This document shows, one piece after another, positions 2,621 through 13,370 of a DNA stretch of 29,481 nucleotides. Position numbers and translations under genes: made by a program. The number at the start of each line of letters is the position of its first letter. Within the stretch, counting starts at the first letter, position 1. The stretch is from a virus: the IMG/VR virus record IMGVR_UViG_3300031141_000028, positions 1 to 29,481 of that record; one strand, 5' to 3'. The notes beneath the pieces are model-generated. The model was not told where the DNA came from, searched no databases, and worked only from the letters and a program-made list of their open reading frames with translations.

Positions 2621-2844
2621 TTACCAATATCAAAGACGCTAAGTTTAAAGTCATTGAAACTAAGCTTGATACCTTAATTGCCTTGTCGATGGAGAAAGGG
2701 GAGCAAGCTCAGGGTGAAAGCTTTACTAGGGCGGCAAACGGCATCTTTCAAAAGGACAACAGCCCAGCGGTGACCTATAACGATATAAACAATGTTCGCA
2801 TTGAGATCGTTAAAGCCATCAAAGATTATGGGGTGATGAAATGA
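2617..2844 (+). CDS. Small hypothetical protein (75 aa)
   Basis: The start has a strong ribosome site (AAAGGAGCC) and an ATGA overlap with its upstream neighbour; the stop overlaps the next start in the same way. The protein is hydrophilic, begins MITNIKDAKFKVIETKLDTL, and contains two probable helices around a Gly/Asn-rich middle. No motif recognised. The position between coupled genes supports that it is translated. Confidence 0.65.
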   Translation: MITNIKDAKFKVIETKLDTLIALSMEKGEQAQGESFTRAANGIFQKDNSPAVTYNDINNVRIEIVKAIKDYGVMK

Positions 2845-3251
2845 TTGACCCACAAGTAAGCCTTACTCTTTCCCTCGCGGATGCTTCCCAACTACAAAGC
2901 ACGTTGGAAGATGCTCTGGATAATACCCTAAGCGACATAGACAATTATCATCCTTCTGAAAATGATATTAATGATTTGAATTATTGGAAGCATTATGAGG
3001 GGTTTCTATCGCGTACCTTGCAAGATGTGACCCAACGGCTAGACTATAGCCAGGGTAGAACACCGCCACGCACCCACCTGGCTAGCAGTTCGCAGGAGCT
3101 AATTAATCAAGCGTTGAAGCAATTAGATTTACGCCCGTGCGACCTTGCCGAAAAGCTAGGCGTCTCGCGGGGTCAGATTAGTAAATGGAAAAAACATAAT
3201 GAGTATATGTCTGTATCGCGCCAAACGATGATAAAGGAGTTGATGCAATGA
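2841..3251 (+). CDS. Protein with C-terminal helix-turn-helix (136 aa), putative regulator
   Basis: Residues about 86-120 read LINQALKQLDLRPCDLAEKL followed by GVSRGQISKWKK, a clear Xre/Cro-type helix-turn-helix (L-A-x-x-L-G-V-S-x-x-x-I-S-x-W). The N-terminal 80 residues are acidic and helical and could be a dimerisation or partner-binding region. This is the only recognisable DNA-binding regulator of the accessory block, so it is the best candidate lysis-lysogeny or operon regulator. It is not in the usual divergent repressor position, and its start and stop overlap its neighbours. HTH assignment is firm; role inferred. Confidence 0.75.
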   Translation: MIDPQVSLTLSLADASQLQSTLEDALDNTLSDIDNYHPSENDINDLNYWKHYEGFLSRTLQDVTQRLDYSQGRTPPRTHLASSSQELINQALKQLDLRPCDLAEKLGVSRGQISKWKKHNEYMSVSRQTMIKELMQ

Positions 3252-6724: not shown

Positions 6725-7977
6725 TTAAAGCACCGTATGTAAGACCGCGTATACTAAAGTCGGATAGCAGTATTGTTTATGACCTCAGACCTACAGATGA
6801 ACTACTGAAGGCGTTCCCTGAATTAATGCGCCAATCAACCCCAGATAAGAAATATGCAAATTCTATAGGATACGAGTGGAAACGGAAGCTAGACGTATGG
6901 TTAAAGAATGGTCAGGTAGACAATAAATACGGCCCTAATTCAGTAAATTCTATTATTGATTACTATAAAGGTTCTATGGCCTTTCGGGTGAACCTCACTG
7001 CTAGCAGTCGAAGATCATATCTACATCACTTAGATTATCTTAGGAAAGTAAGAGTTCAGCGCCAAGAGTTTGGCGCAATGGACGTAGATGATGTTAACTA
7101 TGATTATGCTGAAAAACTTTGGCTTTTCATTCGCGAGGACATCAGTGAGCATAAGGCTAATCATTGTATCAAAGTTTTAAAGATTATCTGGTCGCTGTGT
7201 GTTAAATCTAAACGGGTGAAGTCTAATGTTTTTCGTGAACTTAAACTTCCTAAATTACCTAACCGTACAGTGCTATGGGAGATAGAAGATATACGTGGAA
7301 TGATAGATTACTGTGATGCAAACGGACACAGTAGCATGGGTACAATCATTACTATGTGTTTTGAGTTCTGCCAGCGCCCCGTAGATATACGCAAGTTTCA
7401 ATGGTCCCATATTAATGGTCGAACTGGAGTGAGTAACTTCATTCAGCAAAAGACCAAGAAAAATATGGCTATTGCAATGTCTAATGCTGTCCAGCAGCGT
7501 CTACATCTACACTTAAAACGCAATACAGATGATTTTATATGTGCATATGAGAATACAGGCCGTCCATATACGCAAGACAGTTCGAATAAGATATTTAGGA
7601 AGATGGCAAAGGGTTATGGGCTTCCTGAAGTGCTTATTAAAGATCAGTTTAACAAGGATGGTACTCAAAAGTACTCTACCACATGGCTTTCTGATCTTAG
7701 GCGTACTGGGGCTACTCATGCAGCTAGAGCGGGGTGTACTGATAGAGAGTTAATGAGTTTAACCGGACATCGTGACCCGCAAATGTTGGTTGTGTATGCC
7801 ATTGAAGGTGAGATCGAAAGTACTCATGCTCAAGCCAAACGTAGTAAGTATGACAGTGGCTTGTTGATGGACGGTGAACTGTTTGCTTCCCAACAAAAGT
7901 TGATGGCTCATGTCGCTAATGTTGATGGCCTGTCTGGGGAATGGGAGACCCAATCAGGGTTTACTGTAAATGAATAA
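6721..7977 (+). CDS. int: Tyrosine-family site-specific integrase
   Basis: The 418-aa protein is a phage-type tyrosine recombinase acting on attP/attB. Residues about 60-170 look like the SAM-like core-binding domain (SSRRSYLHHLDYL). The catalytic domain shows Arg I in CQRPVDIRKF (R219), a beta-hairpin lysine region (QQKTKKNMAI), box II LSDLRRTGATHAA (R327) and TGHRDPQMLVVYAIEG with H350 and nucleophile Y359. The usual HxxR histidine is Ser324 here. The start is set by GGAG and overlap with the leader ORF. A tRNA 3' half about 440 bases downstream is the likely core site, supporting a working integration module. Confidence 0.95.
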   Translation: MIKAPYVRPRILKSDSSIVYDLRPTDELLKAFPELMRQSTPDKKYANSIGYEWKRKLDVWLKNGQVDNKYGPNSVNSIIDYYKGSMAFRVNLTASSRRSYLHHLDYLRKVRVQRQEFGAMDVDDVNYDYAEKLWLFIREDISEHKANHCIKVLKIIWSLCVKSKRVKSNVFRELKLPKLPNRTVLWEIEDIRGMIDYCDANGHSSMGTIITMCFEFCQRPVDIRKFQWSHINGRTGVSNFIQQKTKKNMAIAMSNAVQQRLHLHLKRNTDDFICAYENTGRPYTQDSSNKIFRKMAKGYGLPEVLIKDQFNKDGTQKYSTTWLSDLRRTGATHAARAGCTDRELMSLTGHRDPQMLVVYAIEGEIESTHAQAKRSKYDSGLLMDGELFASQQKLMAHVANVDGLSGEWETQSGFTVNE

Positions 7978-8188
7978 AAAACACATAACGATGGACTTGA
8001 TCGGCTGCATAATTTGTGGGGCTGCTAAAACGGTTGTTTCGGATTCTCGCCCAGTGGTTAAGAACAATATGCATTTCACCCGCAGAAAACGAGAGTGCGT
8101 TAAATGCAATTCAAGATACTGGACGAAAGAAGTAATCGATCTTCCAGCGATGCCCTATGAACATCAAAAGGTAACTAAAAGGGCATAG
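7970..8188 (+). CDS. Stand-alone NrdR-like zinc-ribbon protein (72 aa)
   Basis: The protein has CIIC (C13, C16) and CVKC (C43, C46), and between and around them TVVSDSRPV, RRKRECVKCNSRYWTKEV. This follows the N-terminal zinc ribbon of the RNR repressor NrdR (CPxC, VxDSR, RRRRECxxCxxRFTTYE) almost point by point. The ATP-cone that lets NrdR sense nucleotides is absent. It overlaps the int stop by 8 bases; Met8 (7991) is a possible alternative start. It may bind NrdR-type operators without nucleotide control, or be an Ogr-like activator; Ogr has a different cysteine spacing. Homology is convincing by motif; role inferred. Confidence 0.75.
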   Translation: MNKKHITMDLIGCIICGAAKTVVSDSRPVVKNNMHFTRRKRECVKCNSRYWTKEVIDLPAMPYEHQKVTKRA

Positions 8189-8244
8189 GTTGACTTGTAG
8201 CCAGGTTAAGAGCCTTACGATACTACCGTAACACATAACTAAGA

Positions 8245-8276
8245 GGTCAGCTAATTTGGGGCTGGCCTTTTTTTTT
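8245..8276 (+). terminator. Rho-independent terminator of the int-zinc-ribbon unit
   Basis: GGTCAGC pairs with GCTGGCC (7 bp, one G-U) around an 8-9 base loop, followed by nine T. It lies 57 bases after the zinc-ribbon stop and before the attachment region. Confidence 0.85.
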
Positions 8277-8328
8277 GTTTAATGAGTGAGTCGGTGTCTT
8301 TTACAAAATAGTATGGCCCCTACGACAC

Positions 8329-8388
8329 AGAAATGGCAGAAATGGCAGTCTGCCACCGCACGTTCTGCCATGCCATTATGTGATCACA
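8329..8388. promoter_or_regulatory. Palindrome and tandem-repeat block beside attP
   Basis: The 9-mer AGAAATGGC is tandemly repeated (8329-8337, 8338-8346). It overlaps a perfect 13-base palindrome TGGCAGTCTGCCA (8343-8355), and CTGCCATGCCAT follows at 8365-8376 as a further inverted copy. TGTGATCACA, a perfect 10-base palindrome, is at 8379-8388. All lie within 100 bases of the attP core in DNA without a gene, where accessory-factor or integrase sites are expected. Which protein binds is unknown. Confidence 0.5.
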
Positions 8389-8419
8389 AACACACTATTA
8401 TCGTTATTAATCAATACAT

Positions 8420-8457
8420 TGGCTCCGGCGGTAGGGATCGAACCTACGACCAATTGA
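8420..8457 (-). other. attP: attP core: 3' half of a tRNA gene, probably tRNA-Asn
   Basis: Read on the minus strand this is an exact tRNA 3' half: anticodon-stem strand TCAAT, variable TGGTC, T arm GTAGG-TTCGATC-CCTAC, acceptor strand CGCCGGA, discriminator G and CCA. No 5' half exists beside it, as expected of a phage attP whose core restores the tRNA on integration. The implied U1-A72 pair with G73 fits tRNA-Asn best. Inverted CCTACG (8443-8448) and CGTAGG (8459-8464) frame its inner boundary. The uncoding stretch 8189-8631 around it holds the terminator, palindromes, TTAAC motifs and this core. Confidence 0.85.
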
Positions 8458-8488
8458 GCGTAGGGAGCCGTTGTTTTTAAACGATAAA

Positions 8489-8518
8489 TTTAACTATCTC
8501 CAGAATACCTGTTAACTT
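8489..8518. repeat. TTAACT motifs next to the attP core
   Basis: TTTAACTA (8489-8496) and GTTAACTT (8511-8518) lie 30-60 bases from the tRNA-like core and repeat the motif clustered upstream of int. Spacing and position resemble arm-type integrase sites. This is inferred from placement only. Confidence 0.4.
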
Positions 8519-8561
8519 TAGGTGTTGTTGTAAATCATTTACTAATTGGCGCAGTTAGCTG

Positions 8562-8587
8562 TTGACAGATCAGGATACCTATATAAG
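8562..8587 (+). promoter_or_regulatory. Weak candidate promoter before primase
   Basis: A perfect TTGACA (8562-8567) is followed after only 14 bases by TATAAG (8582-8587). The spacer is shorter than the usual 16-18, so strength is doubtful, but a promoter is expected here because the upstream unit ends at a terminator. Confidence 0.3.
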
Positions 8588-8593
8588 CTGACG

Positions 8594-8613
8594 CTGTCCC
8601 TATGAGGGGGCAG
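8594..8613 (+). other. Hairpin in the primase leader
   Basis: CTGTCCC pairs with GGGGCAG around TATGAG (7 bp, one G-U). It ends 18 bases before the chosen primase ATG and sequesters an alternative upstream ATG at 8602. No T run follows, so it is not a terminator; a translational control role is possible. Confidence 0.4.
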
Positions 8614-8631
8614 TATAGCCAAAGGCTTATA

Positions 8632-9399
8632 ATGACCTACGCTGAACAACTCCAGATAATTAAAGATATACCTTTAAGAGAAGGTGATACAAAAGTTATA
8701 ACATGCCCGTTCTGTGGAGGTCAAAAGAAGCTAGCCATATCTAAGATAGACGGTAAGTTAATGTGGAACTGCTACAGAGCGTCCTGTGAGGGCAAAGGCA
8801 TCCATTCGGGTAAGAGAGACATACAATCAGCCAAGAACTATCTTACAGGGCAGATACGGAAGCGTGAGGTGTATGTGAGACCTCTACCATCGATTACAAC
8901 ATCTGTAGAGAACCACAAACCAGCCCTCGACTACCTGGCTAGCGTGAACAGTTTAGAAGCTTACCGAAATGGATATATAAAAGTTAGATATGACCCTTCT
9001 CAGGATCGTGTACTGTTTTATAGTGGTGAAGGGGTAGTTGCTAAATCTCTGCGTTCTTATGGCCCTAAATGGATGACCCTTGGCTCTATACCCGCTGGGG
9101 TGCATATAGGAACAGGTACAACAGCGGTATTAGTTGAGGACGTACCATCTGCATGTTCAGTATCCAGAGTTAACGGCTTAGTTGGTGTTGCTATGTTGGG
9201 GACGAATATTACTAAGGCACTTAACAAAGCCACAGAAAAGTACCTTAATAAATATTTATGCCTTGACAAAGATGCCTCTGCTAAGGCTATTGTTATAAAG
9301 CGCCAACTAGGGGCTAGCTTAAAAGTGCGGTTTATTAGCAAAGATTTAAAAGTATTAACTACTAGCCAAATACGCCACACATTAAAAATCGACCTTTAG
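8632..9399 (+). CDS. DNA primase, zinc-binding plus Toprim (T7-type)
   Basis: The 255-aa protein makes RNA primers for lagging-strand synthesis. The N-terminal zinc domain shows C25PFC28 and C47YRASC52, the T7 gp4-type pattern. The Toprim domain has the acidic motif VLVEDVPSACSVSR and the metal-binding LDKDASAKA. There is no helicase domain; the helicase is the separate gene at 9995. I chose ATG 8632 (after AAAGG) over in-frame ATG 8602, which lies in a hairpin and lacks a ribosome site. The adjacent helicase and polymerase place it in the replication module. Confidence 0.9.
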   Translation: MTYAEQLQIIKDIPLREGDTKVITCPFCGGQKKLAISKIDGKLMWNCYRASCEGKGIHSGKRDIQSAKNYLTGQIRKREVYVRPLPSITTSVENHKPALDYLASVNSLEAYRNGYIKVRYDPSQDRVLFYSGEGVVAKSLRSYGPKWMTLGSIPAGVHIGTGTTAVLVEDVPSACSVSRVNGLVGVAMLGTNITKALNKATEKYLNKYLCLDKDASAKAIVIKRQLGASLKVRFISKDLKVLTTSQIRHTLKIDL

Positions 9400-9456
9400 G
9401 TTGGTATGCAGAATGGCCCAGACTATACGTGGGTCAGAAACAGGGGGATTTAAATT

Positions 9457-9585
9457 ATGGCATTTATAGCCAGACAACTTGATGATTCATCGGGTGTTAG
9501 CTCAGAAGGAATAGGTTTTTTTGGCATTAGTGTAACGAGCTGGTGCAACACGGCACGGTCAGGCCCAACTACCGCATTTACTTAA
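9457..9585 (+). CDS. Possible small ORF (42 aa), uncertain
   Basis: An ATG preceded by CAGGGGGATTT opens 42 codons (MAFIARQLDDSSGVSSEGIG...) to TAA at 9583-9585. It fills most of the 277-base gap between primase and the next gene. The peptide is Ser/Thr/Gly-rich with no motif and shows no overlap coupling. It could equally be noncoding leader. Confidence 0.3.
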   Translation: MAFIARQLDDSSGVSSEGIGFFGISVTSWCNTARSGPTTAFT

Positions 9586-9994: not shown

Positions 9995-11212
9995 ATGGAC
10001 CAATCTTTACTTAAAAGCTGCCTTAGTTACGATTTTTATAACAGTAACAAGGCTAAATTAAGACCCACACTTTTTGATGACTCATTAAAAGACATATATA
10101 AAACATTAGTTTCTATGCACGATAAGTTTGAGCAAGACATCAGCCCACTGGAAATGTTTAGCTTTTGGAAATCGCAAAACCCTACCTCAACAGCCAGTTG
10201 GGATGACGAAATAAAAGGGCTAATCCACTCAATAGACAAGGCTGAAATATTAACCCCCGTGATTGCTACAGAAGTTATTGAGAACCTTTGGCGGCAAGCA
10301 ATAGGCTTAGACATTGCTAACCTCGGAATAAAAATGAGTGAGGGTGATGTTTCTGCAATGGACCAATTGAATGAGTTATTACAAAAGGTGGCTGGGGGTT
10401 ATGTACCCAATCAATTTGATGATTGCATATGTGACGCCGACATCTACGAGATGCTTGCCGCAGTATCTAACGAGAACAAGTTTAAGTTTAACATAGAAAC
10501 ACTGAGCCGAAATGTTTATGGGATCGGGCGCGGAGACTTCGGAGTTATAGCGGCATATAGCAACGTGGGTAAAACTGCCTTTGCAATTAGCTTATGTGCG
10601 GGGCCAGGAGGATTTTGCGAACAGGGTGCTAAGGTAGGCTATATTGCCAACGAAGAAATTTCTATGAAAAGTAGACTTCGGGCGCTCATGGCATACACAG
10701 GTTTAACGAAAGAAGAATGTGAGTTTGACCCTCAAGCTGCGGGAGCAAGGTTTCAGGGAATAAAGGATAAAATTACTTTTGCTGATGCACAAGCTTGGGA
10801 CATCACTACACTTGATGCTTTTATTGCCAGAGAGAAATTTGATGTAGTAATTGTGGACATGGGAGATAAAATTTCCCTAACTACCCAGTTTGCTAGCGAC
10901 CACCTACGCCTTCGACATTTATACTATCGACTTCGAGAATTGGCAAAAACCCACAATCTTGCGCTATTGGCCCTATCGCAAGCTAGTGCGGAGGCTCAAG
11001 GCAGAACACGCATTACTATGGATATGATGGAAGGCTCTAAGCTAGGTAAGGCTGCGGAGAGCGATATTATGCTAGGCATTGGTAAGGCTGATGATCCTAA
11101 CAACCCTGACGATCCCACCCGCTATATAAATGTGATGAAGAATAAGATTTCTGGTTGGCACGGTTTAGTGACATGCAGCTTAAATATAGGCAATCATCGC
11201 TTTGAAGTTTGA
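9995..11212 (+). CDS. Replicative DNA helicase, DnaB-like
   Basis: The 405-aa protein is a RecA-fold hexameric helicase that unwinds DNA at the phage fork. The C-terminal ATPase begins with GRGDFGVIAAYSNVGKTAFA; the P-loop Lys is K193 and Thr T194, and the first P-loop Gly is Ala. Walker B is VVIVDMGD (D288). A sensor-like LALSQAS follows. The N-terminal 150 residues are helical and lack a primase domain. GAAGGACGAG precedes the ATG. The stop overlaps the polymerase start by 11 bases, indicating co-translation with its fork partner. Confidence 0.88.
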   Translation: MDQSLLKSCLSYDFYNSNKAKLRPTLFDDSLKDIYKTLVSMHDKFEQDISPLEMFSFWKSQNPTSTASWDDEIKGLIHSIDKAEILTPVIATEVIENLWRQAIGLDIANLGIKMSEGDVSAMDQLNELLQKVAGGYVPNQFDDCICDADIYEMLAAVSNENKFKFNIETLSRNVYGIGRGDFGVIAAYSNVGKTAFAISLCAGPGGFCEQGAKVGYIANEEISMKSRLRALMAYTGLTKEECEFDPQAAGARFQGIKDKITFADAQAWDITTLDAFIAREKFDVVIVDMGDKISLTTQFASDHLRLRHLYYRLRELAKTHNLALLALSQASAEAQGRTRITMDMMEGSKLGKAAESDIMLGIGKADDPNNPDDPTRYINVMKNKISGWHGLVTCSLNIGNHRFEV

Positions 11213-13370
11213 TTTAGGTCAACGATGGTTAGTTTTAGATTTAGAGACAACTGTTGATCATATCGAAGGCCGTATCGATAACTCCCCCAAGAACCCCCTA
11301 AACAAGTGCGTGTCTGGTCACTATGGCTGGCTGGGTGAGGACACGGTTGATCTAGTACATGCAGATGTGTGGAACCATACTGAATATGAGGGTTGTGATC
11401 CGATACAAAGGCTAGAGGAGCATCTGGCTCAAGCTTACGGCTGCATCATGCACAACGCTAAGTTCGACACTGAATGGCTGATGGAAATGGGATTTAAGTT
11501 ACCACCCTTTATCTATGACACAATGATCGTGGAATATCTATTATCTAAGGGCCAACGCAGACCGTTAAGCCTGAAAGAGAGTTGCCTTCGTAATGCCACT
11601 AAAAGCATAAAGAAGTCAGACCTTGTTGATGAGCTTTTCCATAGTGGAATCGGGTTCGAAAAAATGCCTTTGGACGTTGTTCTGGAGTACGCAGAAGCTG
11701 ATGTTAAAGCTACAGGGGAACTGTTCTTAGCCCAGCGCAAAGCTTTAGATCGTGAACACAACACCTCACTAAAGACAGTTATCCCCTTCATGATGGAGAT
11801 GATGCTGTTCTTGTGTGAGATTGAAATGAATGGCGTAAAGATAGACACTGAAGCCTTAAATCTAGTTGAGCTTAAATTTAGGGCTGAGAAGGTGCAACTA
11901 ACGGACGATCTATCTCGCATTATTGAACGGGTAATGGGTGACACTCCTATAAACATCAACTCCGGTAGAGATATGACTAAGGTTATATACTCGCGTGATG
12001 TCACTAACCGTGAAGCTCACATACAGACCTTTAACATTGGTACAAATGCAGCGGGTAAGTCTCTGAGACCTCCCTTTATGTCTAATGCTCAATTTGCAGA
12101 CGCCGTTAGAGCTTCCACAAGCATCGTGATGCGTACACAAGCCTCTCAATGCCCTGACTGTAGAGGCGCTGGTAGTATTCAGAAATACAAAGTGGTTACT
12201 AAGACTAAACTTGGAAAGAAGTACCGCACTACCGGAGAAGCCTATAAAAACCGTACAAAGTGTGCCGTCTGTGATGGTGCTGGTGCATTATATATCAGCA
12301 CAGGAGTATCAGCGGGACTCAGGATGTCACCTAAAGGCCCTAATGATGCCAGTGCTAACGGATTTAAGACCGATAAAGGGACTATTCTTGAACTGATCAA
12401 AAGGGCAGAGGCCAAAGGTAATCTGCAAGCTGTTGAGTTCCTGACTAAGATGTCGAGGCTCAAAGCCGTCACTGTCTACCTGGACAGCTTTTGCGCTGGC
12501 ATTCAGCGAGGTACTAGAGCAACTGGCTTTCTTCACGCTAACTTCAATCAGTGTGTAGCAGCAACAGGTCGGTTGTCTTCAGGCGGTGGTATTACACTTA
12601 ACCTCCAGAACATGCCTAAGAGAGGTTTTCCTGTTAGGGCTTGTATCGTCAGTCGATTTGAAAACGGGAAAATAATCGAGTCGGATTATTCTGGGCTTGA
12701 ATTTCGCACGGCTTGCGAACTGTCTAGGGATAGCCAAGGCATAGCTGACATTTTAGACGGTAAAGATATTCACAGGCAGACAGCCTCAATAATAAATCAA
12801 TGCAGTACTACCGAAGTATCAAAGGATGCTAGACAACGAGCGAAGGCATTTTCGTTTCTCCCCCTTTTTGGCGGAACTTCCTTTGGACATCCACCTCACA
12901 TCGCTGCGTATCTGGATGGCTTCTACGATATATATGAGGGTATTCATGGCTGGCACAAATCTCTAATGGACGGCACTCTGAAGGATGGGACTGTGCAGAC
13001 CCCGTCAGGACGCCAGTACTTTTGGCCTAACGTAGAGCGCACTCGCAACCAGCGCGTCACGAATGCTACTCAGATATTAAATTATCCTGTCCAAGGCTTC
13101 AGTGCCGACCTTGTTCAGCTAGCTTGCATCCGCGCATTTAGGTTATTTAAGGCTGAAAATCTACGCTCCAAGCTTATCTTAACTGTTCACGACAGCATAG
13201 TTGTAGACACTCATCCTGATGAAATAGAGCAAGTTAAAAGTATTTTAACAGAGGCTATGACTAAGGTTGGAGAAGAGTCTGAAAAGCTGTTTAATTACAA
13301 GCTAGTAGTTCCATTAGACATTGAAATTTCAGGAGGTATAAACTGGCTTGACCAAGAGGAATATGCTTGA
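11202..13370 (+). CDS. Family A DNA polymerase with internal DnaJ-type zinc finger
   Basis: The 722-aa replicative polymerase has a 3'-5' proofreading domain: Exo I LVLDLETT (D13, E15), Exo II HNAKFD, Exo III Y163AEAD167. Residues about 317-361 hold CPDCRGAG (C317, C320) and CAVCDGAG (C354, C357), a half DnaJ cysteine-rich zinc finger. The polymerase domain follows: motif A SDYSGLE (D495), motif B RAKAFSFLPLFGG (K548), motif C VHDS (D664). Motif C has Ser instead of the usual Glu. Only TTG at 11202 gives a complete Exo I, so it is the start. This exonuclease-DnaJ-polymerase order is the hallmark described for HMO-2011-type phages. Confidence 0.95.
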   Translation: MKFDLGQRWLVLDLETTVDHIEGRIDNSPKNPLNKCVSGHYGWLGEDTVDLVHADVWNHTEYEGCDPIQRLEEHLAQAYGCIMHNAKFDTEWLMEMGFKLPPFIYDTMIVEYLLSKGQRRPLSLKESCLRNATKSIKKSDLVDELFHSGIGFEKMPLDVVLEYAEADVKATGELFLAQRKALDREHNTSLKTVIPFMMEMMLFLCEIEMNGVKIDTEALNLVELKFRAEKVQLTDDLSRIIERVMGDTPININSGRDMTKVIYSRDVTNREAHIQTFNIGTNAAGKSLRPPFMSNAQFADAVRASTSIVMRTQASQCPDCRGAGSIQKYKVVTKTKLGKKYRTTGEAYKNRTKCAVCDGAGALYISTGVSAGLRMSPKGPNDASANGFKTDKGTILELIKRAEAKGNLQAVEFLTKMSRLKAVTVYLDSFCAGIQRGTRATGFLHANFNQCVAATGRLSSGGGITLNLQNMPKRGFPVRACIVSRFENGKIIESDYSGLEFRTACELSRDSQGIADILDGKDIHRQTASIINQCSTTEVSKDARQRAKAFSFLPLFGGTSFGHPPHIAAYLDGFYDIYEGIHGWHKSLMDGTLKDGTVQTPSGRQYFWPNVERTRNQRVTNATQILNYPVQGFSADLVQLACIRAFRLFKAENLRSKLILTVHDSIVVDTHPDEIEQVKSILTEAMTKVGEESEKLFNYKLVVPLDIEISGGINWLDQEEYA

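Follow-up and report, generated by a model that had tools for sequence, protein, structure and literature searches.

The 38-bp block TGGCTCCGGCGGTAGGGATCGAACCTACGACCAATTGA is very probably the attP of an HMO-2011-type podovirus, which the adjacent tyrosine integrase would recombine with the tRNA-Asn(GTT) gene of a host, in its 3' half and most likely within TCAATTGG. The basis is the observed sequence identity, its position, its conservation, the integrase family and the presence of target-specific integrase clades; from these we infer the recombination itself, the crossover position and the roles of the IHF-like and arm-type sites. The block lies in an IMG/VR virus record whose 29,481 bases are the whole stretch analyzed here (the window). 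All feature coordinates are given in Table 1.

The tRNA-Asn block and its phage

The reverse complement of the block is the end of the full gene TCCGGCGTAGCTCAGCGGTAGAGCAGTTGACTGTTAATCAATTGGTCGTAGGTTCGATCCCTACCGCCGGAGCCA, which is present in many IMG/VR stretches and which ARAGORN identified as tRNA-Asn (gtt) at all 17 loci tested. Identity begins with tRNA position 39, where the 3' strand of the anticodon stem starts. The sequence-only reading had described a tRNA 3' half without its 5' half, running from that strand to CCA near a tyrosine integrase, and had assigned it to tRNA-Asn by U1-A72 and G73; both statements proved correct, and tRNA-Asn(gtt) genes match the 38-bp core exactly. ARAGORN found no complete tRNA gene in the window, and an Rfam search of positions 7500 to 9500 gave chance matches only. 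The block is single copy in the record, allowing up to 3 mismatches over 32 nt, with the end of the integrase gene ca. 440 nt to its left and the start of the DNA primase gene ca. 145 nt to its right. Exact copies of the 38-mer were found in at least 119 IMG/VR stretches and include 17 distinct full tRNA-Asn contexts.

Table 1. Coordinates of the features of the window discussed in the text
Feature	Position	Strand	Evidence
Tyrosine integrase, 418 aa	6721..7977	+	PF00589 E 1.1e-11; PHROG integrase 2e-30; catalytic residues
NrdR-type zinc-ribbon protein, 72 aa, between integrase and attP	7970..8188	+	PF22811 2e-10
Five-copy pentamer array TGGCA-TGGCA-N10-TGGCA-N3-TGCCA-N4-TGCCA, candidate arm-type array	8334..8375	-	inferred
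Imperfect inverted repeat around core, left arm	8398..8414	.	76% complementary to right arm
IHF-consensus-like site AATCAATACATTG (consensus WATCAANNNNTTR), abuts tRNA CCA end	8409..8421	+	consensus match
attP identity block TGGCTCCGGCGGTAGGGATCGAACCTACGACCAATTGA (+ strand letters), 3' part of tRNA-Asn(GTT), positions 39 to CCA	8420..8457	-	exact match to full tRNA-Asn genes and relatives' attPs
22-nt imperfect palindrome CCTACGACCAA/TTGAGCGTAGG, possible core-type integrase sites around overlap TCAATTGG	8443..8464	.	inverted-repeat search
Imperfect inverted repeat around core, right arm	8471..8487	.	partner of 8398-8414
GTTAACAGGTATTC, candidate arm-type site, primase side	8503..8516	-	TAACAGG at fixed offset
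DNA primase, conserved right-hand neighbor of attP	8602..9399	+	PHROG DNA primase 1.1e-12
DNA polymerase, family A, DnaJ-like CXXCXGXG insert	11202..13370	+	PF00476 1.3e-55, PF00684 0.0073

The contig belongs to the HMO-2011-type podoviruses, near CRP-3 and CRP-738, to judge from its family A polymerase (which contains a DnaJ-like insert), its gene order integrase-primase-helicase-polymerase and its best integrase match (CRP-738). Such a polymerase is a published hallmark of these phages (PMC9038755), and CPDCRGAG and CAVCDGAG are both present in the translated PolA of the window. The position of the integrase gene upstream of the primase-helicase-polymerase module matches CRP-3 and HMO-2011. 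The closest cultured relatives are CRP-3, CRP-212, CRP-235 and CRP-738, which suggests a placement in subgroup III of PMC9038755. By megablast, the window gave two short matches to phages and nothing longer. Its other genes include an ArdC-type anti-restriction protein with a zincin-like metallopeptidase domain (116-1012). The small NrdR-type gene next to the integrase, possibly a directionality factor or regulator, is limited to close relatives plus a few others (L104, L024, L008 and L184).

The integrase keeps the catalytic residues R219, K244, R327, H350 and Y359; the first active-site His is a Ser, at a position that is variable across the group and not kept in CRP-3 either. It is 56% identical to that of CRP-738 and about 33% to that of CRP-3, and a PDB sequence search with it gave no match. 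Integrase phylogeny follows the tRNA target. In a tree of 71 integrases the window falls in an Asn-targeting clade, with Met and Ile in a sister clade, and the target changes 8 times along the tree versus a mean of 23.6 after shuffling.

The att locus in related phages

Of the at least 119 stretches carrying the 38-mer, more than 60 come from HMO-2011-type phages, in which the block is next to the primase gene and has the integrase gene on its other side wherever the contig reaches that far. We also gathered a set of relatives blind to the att site, collected by primase alone (80 loci, 69 of them with at least 500 nt upstream). A tRNA 3' half stood upstream of the primase, on the minus strand, in 63 of the 69 (66 including three shorter loci), so the repeat that the sequence-only reading expected in related integrase-bearing phages is indeed there. 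Counting both strands, 952 kb of relatives contained 67 tRNA-3'-half motifs, and 66 of these were just upstream of primase. This single location, together with the exact identity over 38 nt in at least 119 viral stretches, excludes a chance match. The targets listed at the primase-anchored locus were 25 Asn, 35 Met, 5 Ile and 1 Asp. Primase loci without an integrase belong to contigs that stop before it, have it farther off or never reach it, and no host junction was found among them. The earlier claim of an attP is supported by the exact tRNA match, the adjacent integrase and the same placement in relatives. In L106 and L125 the primase is 98% identical to that of the window and the helicase, the next large gene, 45%, indicating a sharp recombination boundary directly downstream of attP and primase.

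Roseobacter phage CRP-3 provides a positive control for the attP reading. Its integration at tRNA-Met(CAT), with the core at the tRNA 3' end, was established by sequencing and PCR (PMC6918029). CRP-3, like CRP-235 and CRP-212, has a tRNA-Met copy at the homologous place, and as in the window this minus-strand copy begins with the 3' strand of the anticodon stem, ends at CCA and is found immediately upstream of the primase gene, with a related integrase upstream. CRP-3 differs in the tRNA and in the more distant integrase, and its integration has been demonstrated by experiment. CRP-3's is the only published integration site that we found for HMO-2011-type phages. The Roseobacter phage CRP-738 is closer, with a tRNA-Asn attP at the same place, a TGGCA array and the most similar integrase; unlike the window, it has GTTGG/CCAAC as T stem and keeps the anticodon loop CTGTTAA. 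We found no report of this attP in the main text of the CRP-738 paper.

The Asn attPs come in several alleles. The GTTGG/CCAAC T stem of CRP-738 also occurs in L184 and L198 (GTAGG/CCTAC in the window), and L181, L183, L195 and L196 have a C in the T loop and the acceptor sequence CGTCGGA. Since tRNA pairing is kept although the phage copy is no tRNA, the alleles are most likely host derived. The Asn block is found as well in distantly related phages of other integrase lineages (L011, L014, L034, L065, L066, L086 and others), which makes tRNA-Asn a crowded, shared docking site.

Crossover position and flanking motifs

In tRNA sites the overlap is usually at the anticodon loop (PMC8371274, PMC4383910). 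We rejected this sublocation (A) for the window because it lacks the 7-nt loop match, having CCTACGC where the tRNA has CTGTTAA. The loop is only partly kept among Asn attPs, and likewise among 18 distinct Met attPs, with CRP-3 itself mismatching there. On the other hand, tRNA positions 39 to 48 are, apart from a single base in one phage, the same in 31 distinct Asn attPs, while the rest of the block varies solely as tRNA alleles and identity fades just upstream of it. A crossover in the T loop, with the T-stem pair GTAGG/CCTAC as core sites, would make use of a perfect 5-7-5 inverted repeat and would belong to a known class (PMC4383910). It is nevertheless unlikely: such a crossover would leave positions 39 to 48 on its 5' side, free of tRNA constraint, yet they are kept. 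With the anticodon loop unmatched and this conservation left unexplained by the T loop, the best candidate is TCAATTGG, and strand exchange most likely takes place within it, just 3' of the anticodon loop.

Both inverted pairs pointed out by the sequence-only reading exist. The first is the T stem, an improbable recombination core on the above grounds. The second, CCTACG/CGTAGG (8443-8448/8459-8464), had been offered as possible core-type integrase sites. In the window the pair would fit as flanks of TCAATTGG, but it is absent from most relatives and its spacing is one base off in the closest. The CCTAC left arm is found only in the window and in the L039 and L080 groups, with a spacing of 12 or 13.

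The attP of phage lambda has a core flanked by IHF sites and repeated outer sites. The window may resemble it in layout, with a core between IHF-like sites and repeated outer sites (consensus-like motifs, all candidates); the core here is tRNA derived, the arm sites are candidates only, and any likeness would be one of layout. Of 28 distinct attPs, 8 have a site fitting WATCAANNNNTTR on the primase side and 15 have one on the integrase side, against a background of 0.127 per kb; the attPs come from related phages, so that the counts carry no exact probability. The offsets of these sites cluster at -2 or +9/+10 on the integrase side and at about -31 on the primase side. The GTTAACAGG motifs, like the IHF-like ones, sit at fixed offsets, and TAACAGG is found at -57 in many Asn attPs, window included. 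The arms of the inverted repeat around the core reach 17 of 18 complementary positions in relatives.

The pentamer array, on the integrase side of attP, has a fixed layout (offsets 0, 5, 20, 28 and 37, with the last two copies inverted). Its unit varies between phages and agrees among the copies within one phage: TGGCA, TTGCA, TCGCA or ATGCA, and more loosely TGGAA or TGTCA. The array was also seen in L064, L016, L005, L024, L089 and CRP-738 (L121). The best 28 arrays score 23 to 25 of 25, versus 16 to 22 for shuffled flanks. L064 has the TTGCA unit despite a primase 99% identical to that of the window. Over the family there was no clear correlation between the unit and the N-terminal domain of the integrase. 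Compared with L085, which has a different unit, the window integrase is 75% identical between neighbors at 88 to 98%; compared with L039, which has the same unit, it is 90%. We read this as a protein-binding array, most likely of arm-type integrase sites (about an even chance); it might instead be an operator, or an RNA hairpin lying downstream of the restored tRNA. The array does fold as RNA (z from -2.1 to -5.3). As an RNA hairpin only, it was rejected, since the third copy, mostly in the loop, keeps the unit too.

Rather tentatively, the whole att locus may be a modular cassette, in which Asn, Met, Ile and Asp cores are swapped at one place, the crossover, unlike those of the usual classes, lies on the 3' side of the anticodon loop, and a five-copy array switches its unit in concert (TGGCA, TTGCA, TCGCA, ATGCA, TGGAA) at fixed spacing. 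If true, this would imply a co-evolving binding protein and perhaps a code, specific to each phage, for recombination or immunity.

Integration, host and lysogeny

In the proposed mechanism, the neighboring tyrosine integrase would recombine attP with the 3' half of the host tRNA-Asn(GTT) gene, and the exchange, most likely in TCAATTGG, would have IHF-like bends and arm-type sites on both sides. The 38 bp of the phage would replace the displaced 3' half, leaving an intact tRNA facing the 3' end of the integrase gene. The prophage would then end in the integrase module at attL and in the primase/replication module at attR.

The sequence-only reading had stated that this sequence can identify the host directly, which is not supported as put: the 17 genomic contexts of the 38-mer, some of them phage-borne tRNA clusters, indicate a broad group only, as a published survey by the same method leads one to expect (PMC3861242). 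On four viral contigs (L003, L051, L074 and L088) this same tRNA-Asn belongs to a cluster of several tRNA genes, all complete; a phage-borne tRNA-Asn could be an integration target itself or could blur host prediction. The relatives point to Roseobacter-type hosts. As the tRNA-Asn allele of the window differs from that of CRP-738, the host is likely a lineage other than FZCC0089. In the plasmid collection the 38-mer had no match in near mode, and none of the matches listed in distant mode was a near-identical full tRNA. The tRNA-Asn of E. coli, among the matches listed, is only 82% alike.

An attP that is intact and lies between phage genes indicates the unintegrated form, as had been proposed earlier. 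An alignment-based scan of 84,980 species genomes recovered no HMO-type DNA polymerase, only PolA-type proteins of other bacterial phyla (34% identity at most) that we read as bacterial Pol I; the search patterns matched 27 of the 27 known HMO-type members, including those used to build them. Searching IMG/VR for attL-type junctions (full tRNA-Asn plus HMO-type integrase-side flank) gave 0 and 0 for the patterns, which would fit the flanks of 28 of the 63 free attPs. With hosts poorly represented and IMG/VR favoring free virus, the absence of prophages is weak evidence that limits only their frequency in these collections.

Several other explanations were weighed. That the block is a non-functional relic of an old integration site would agree with the loss of the anticodon-loop part in the window and its close relatives, but it is very improbable: the 38 bp remain perfect between flanks that have changed, the integrase is intact, the flank motifs are conserved and relatives are adapted to other tRNA alleles. 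Hardly credible at all is that the match is due to chance, or that this piece of tRNA has some other role (as a decoy, a terminator or a regulatory RNA). The window does lack a complete tRNA gene, but nearly all relatives have the block beside the integrase gene, at least four different tRNAs are represented, and the copy in CRP-3 is a proven integration core. A much more serious contender, rival to the word temperate and not to a functional attP, is that integration is rare and transient, with no classical lysogenic cycle and a phage that is in practice lytic; we rate it just short of an even chance. T7-like cyanophages with an integrase and a tRNA-Leu attP integrate without forming stable lysogens (PMC8776855). 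Two of them, P-SSP7 and S-TIP37, are like the window marine podoviruses with an integrase and a tRNA-matching attP and have no prophages in host genomes; they differ in phage group, host and tRNA, and for them transient integration without lysogeny has been demonstrated (PMC8776855). The two empty searches described above, for polymerases and for attL junctions, go in the same direction, and so does the failure to find a convincing CI-type repressor in the window, where the sole candidate lysogeny regulator seen was a 136-aa protein (2841-3251) with a C-terminal helix-turn-helix and weak repressor-like matches. Against it, CRP-3 is reported to integrate, with attL and attR verified (PMC6918029), the hosts grow slowly and are under-represented in genome collections, and matching tRNA alleles are retained across very divergent phages, which implies that integration has a bearing on fitness. 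That this is a functional attP in the unintegrated form is well supported and an integration-competent phage is supported, but temperate, the word of the sequence-only reading, is in its classical sense an evenly balanced matter given the lack of prophages and attL junctions and the similarly equipped cyanophages.

Phages commonly have attP sites that match tRNA genes. Here, an entire phage group, and an abundant one, has tRNA ends at the same spot, and its integrated form did not appear in the collections searched; the case cautions that an integrase together with an attP is no proof of lysogeny. For much of the HMO-2011-type group the att locus is now defined, with tRNA-Asn as the second main target. 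Exact junctions can also be predicted and sought in SAGs, MAGs and cultures: attL would read host ...GACTGTTAA, then the 38-bp core and ATGTATTGATTAATAACGATAATAG, and attR would consist of the primase-side flank, the core and host DNA.
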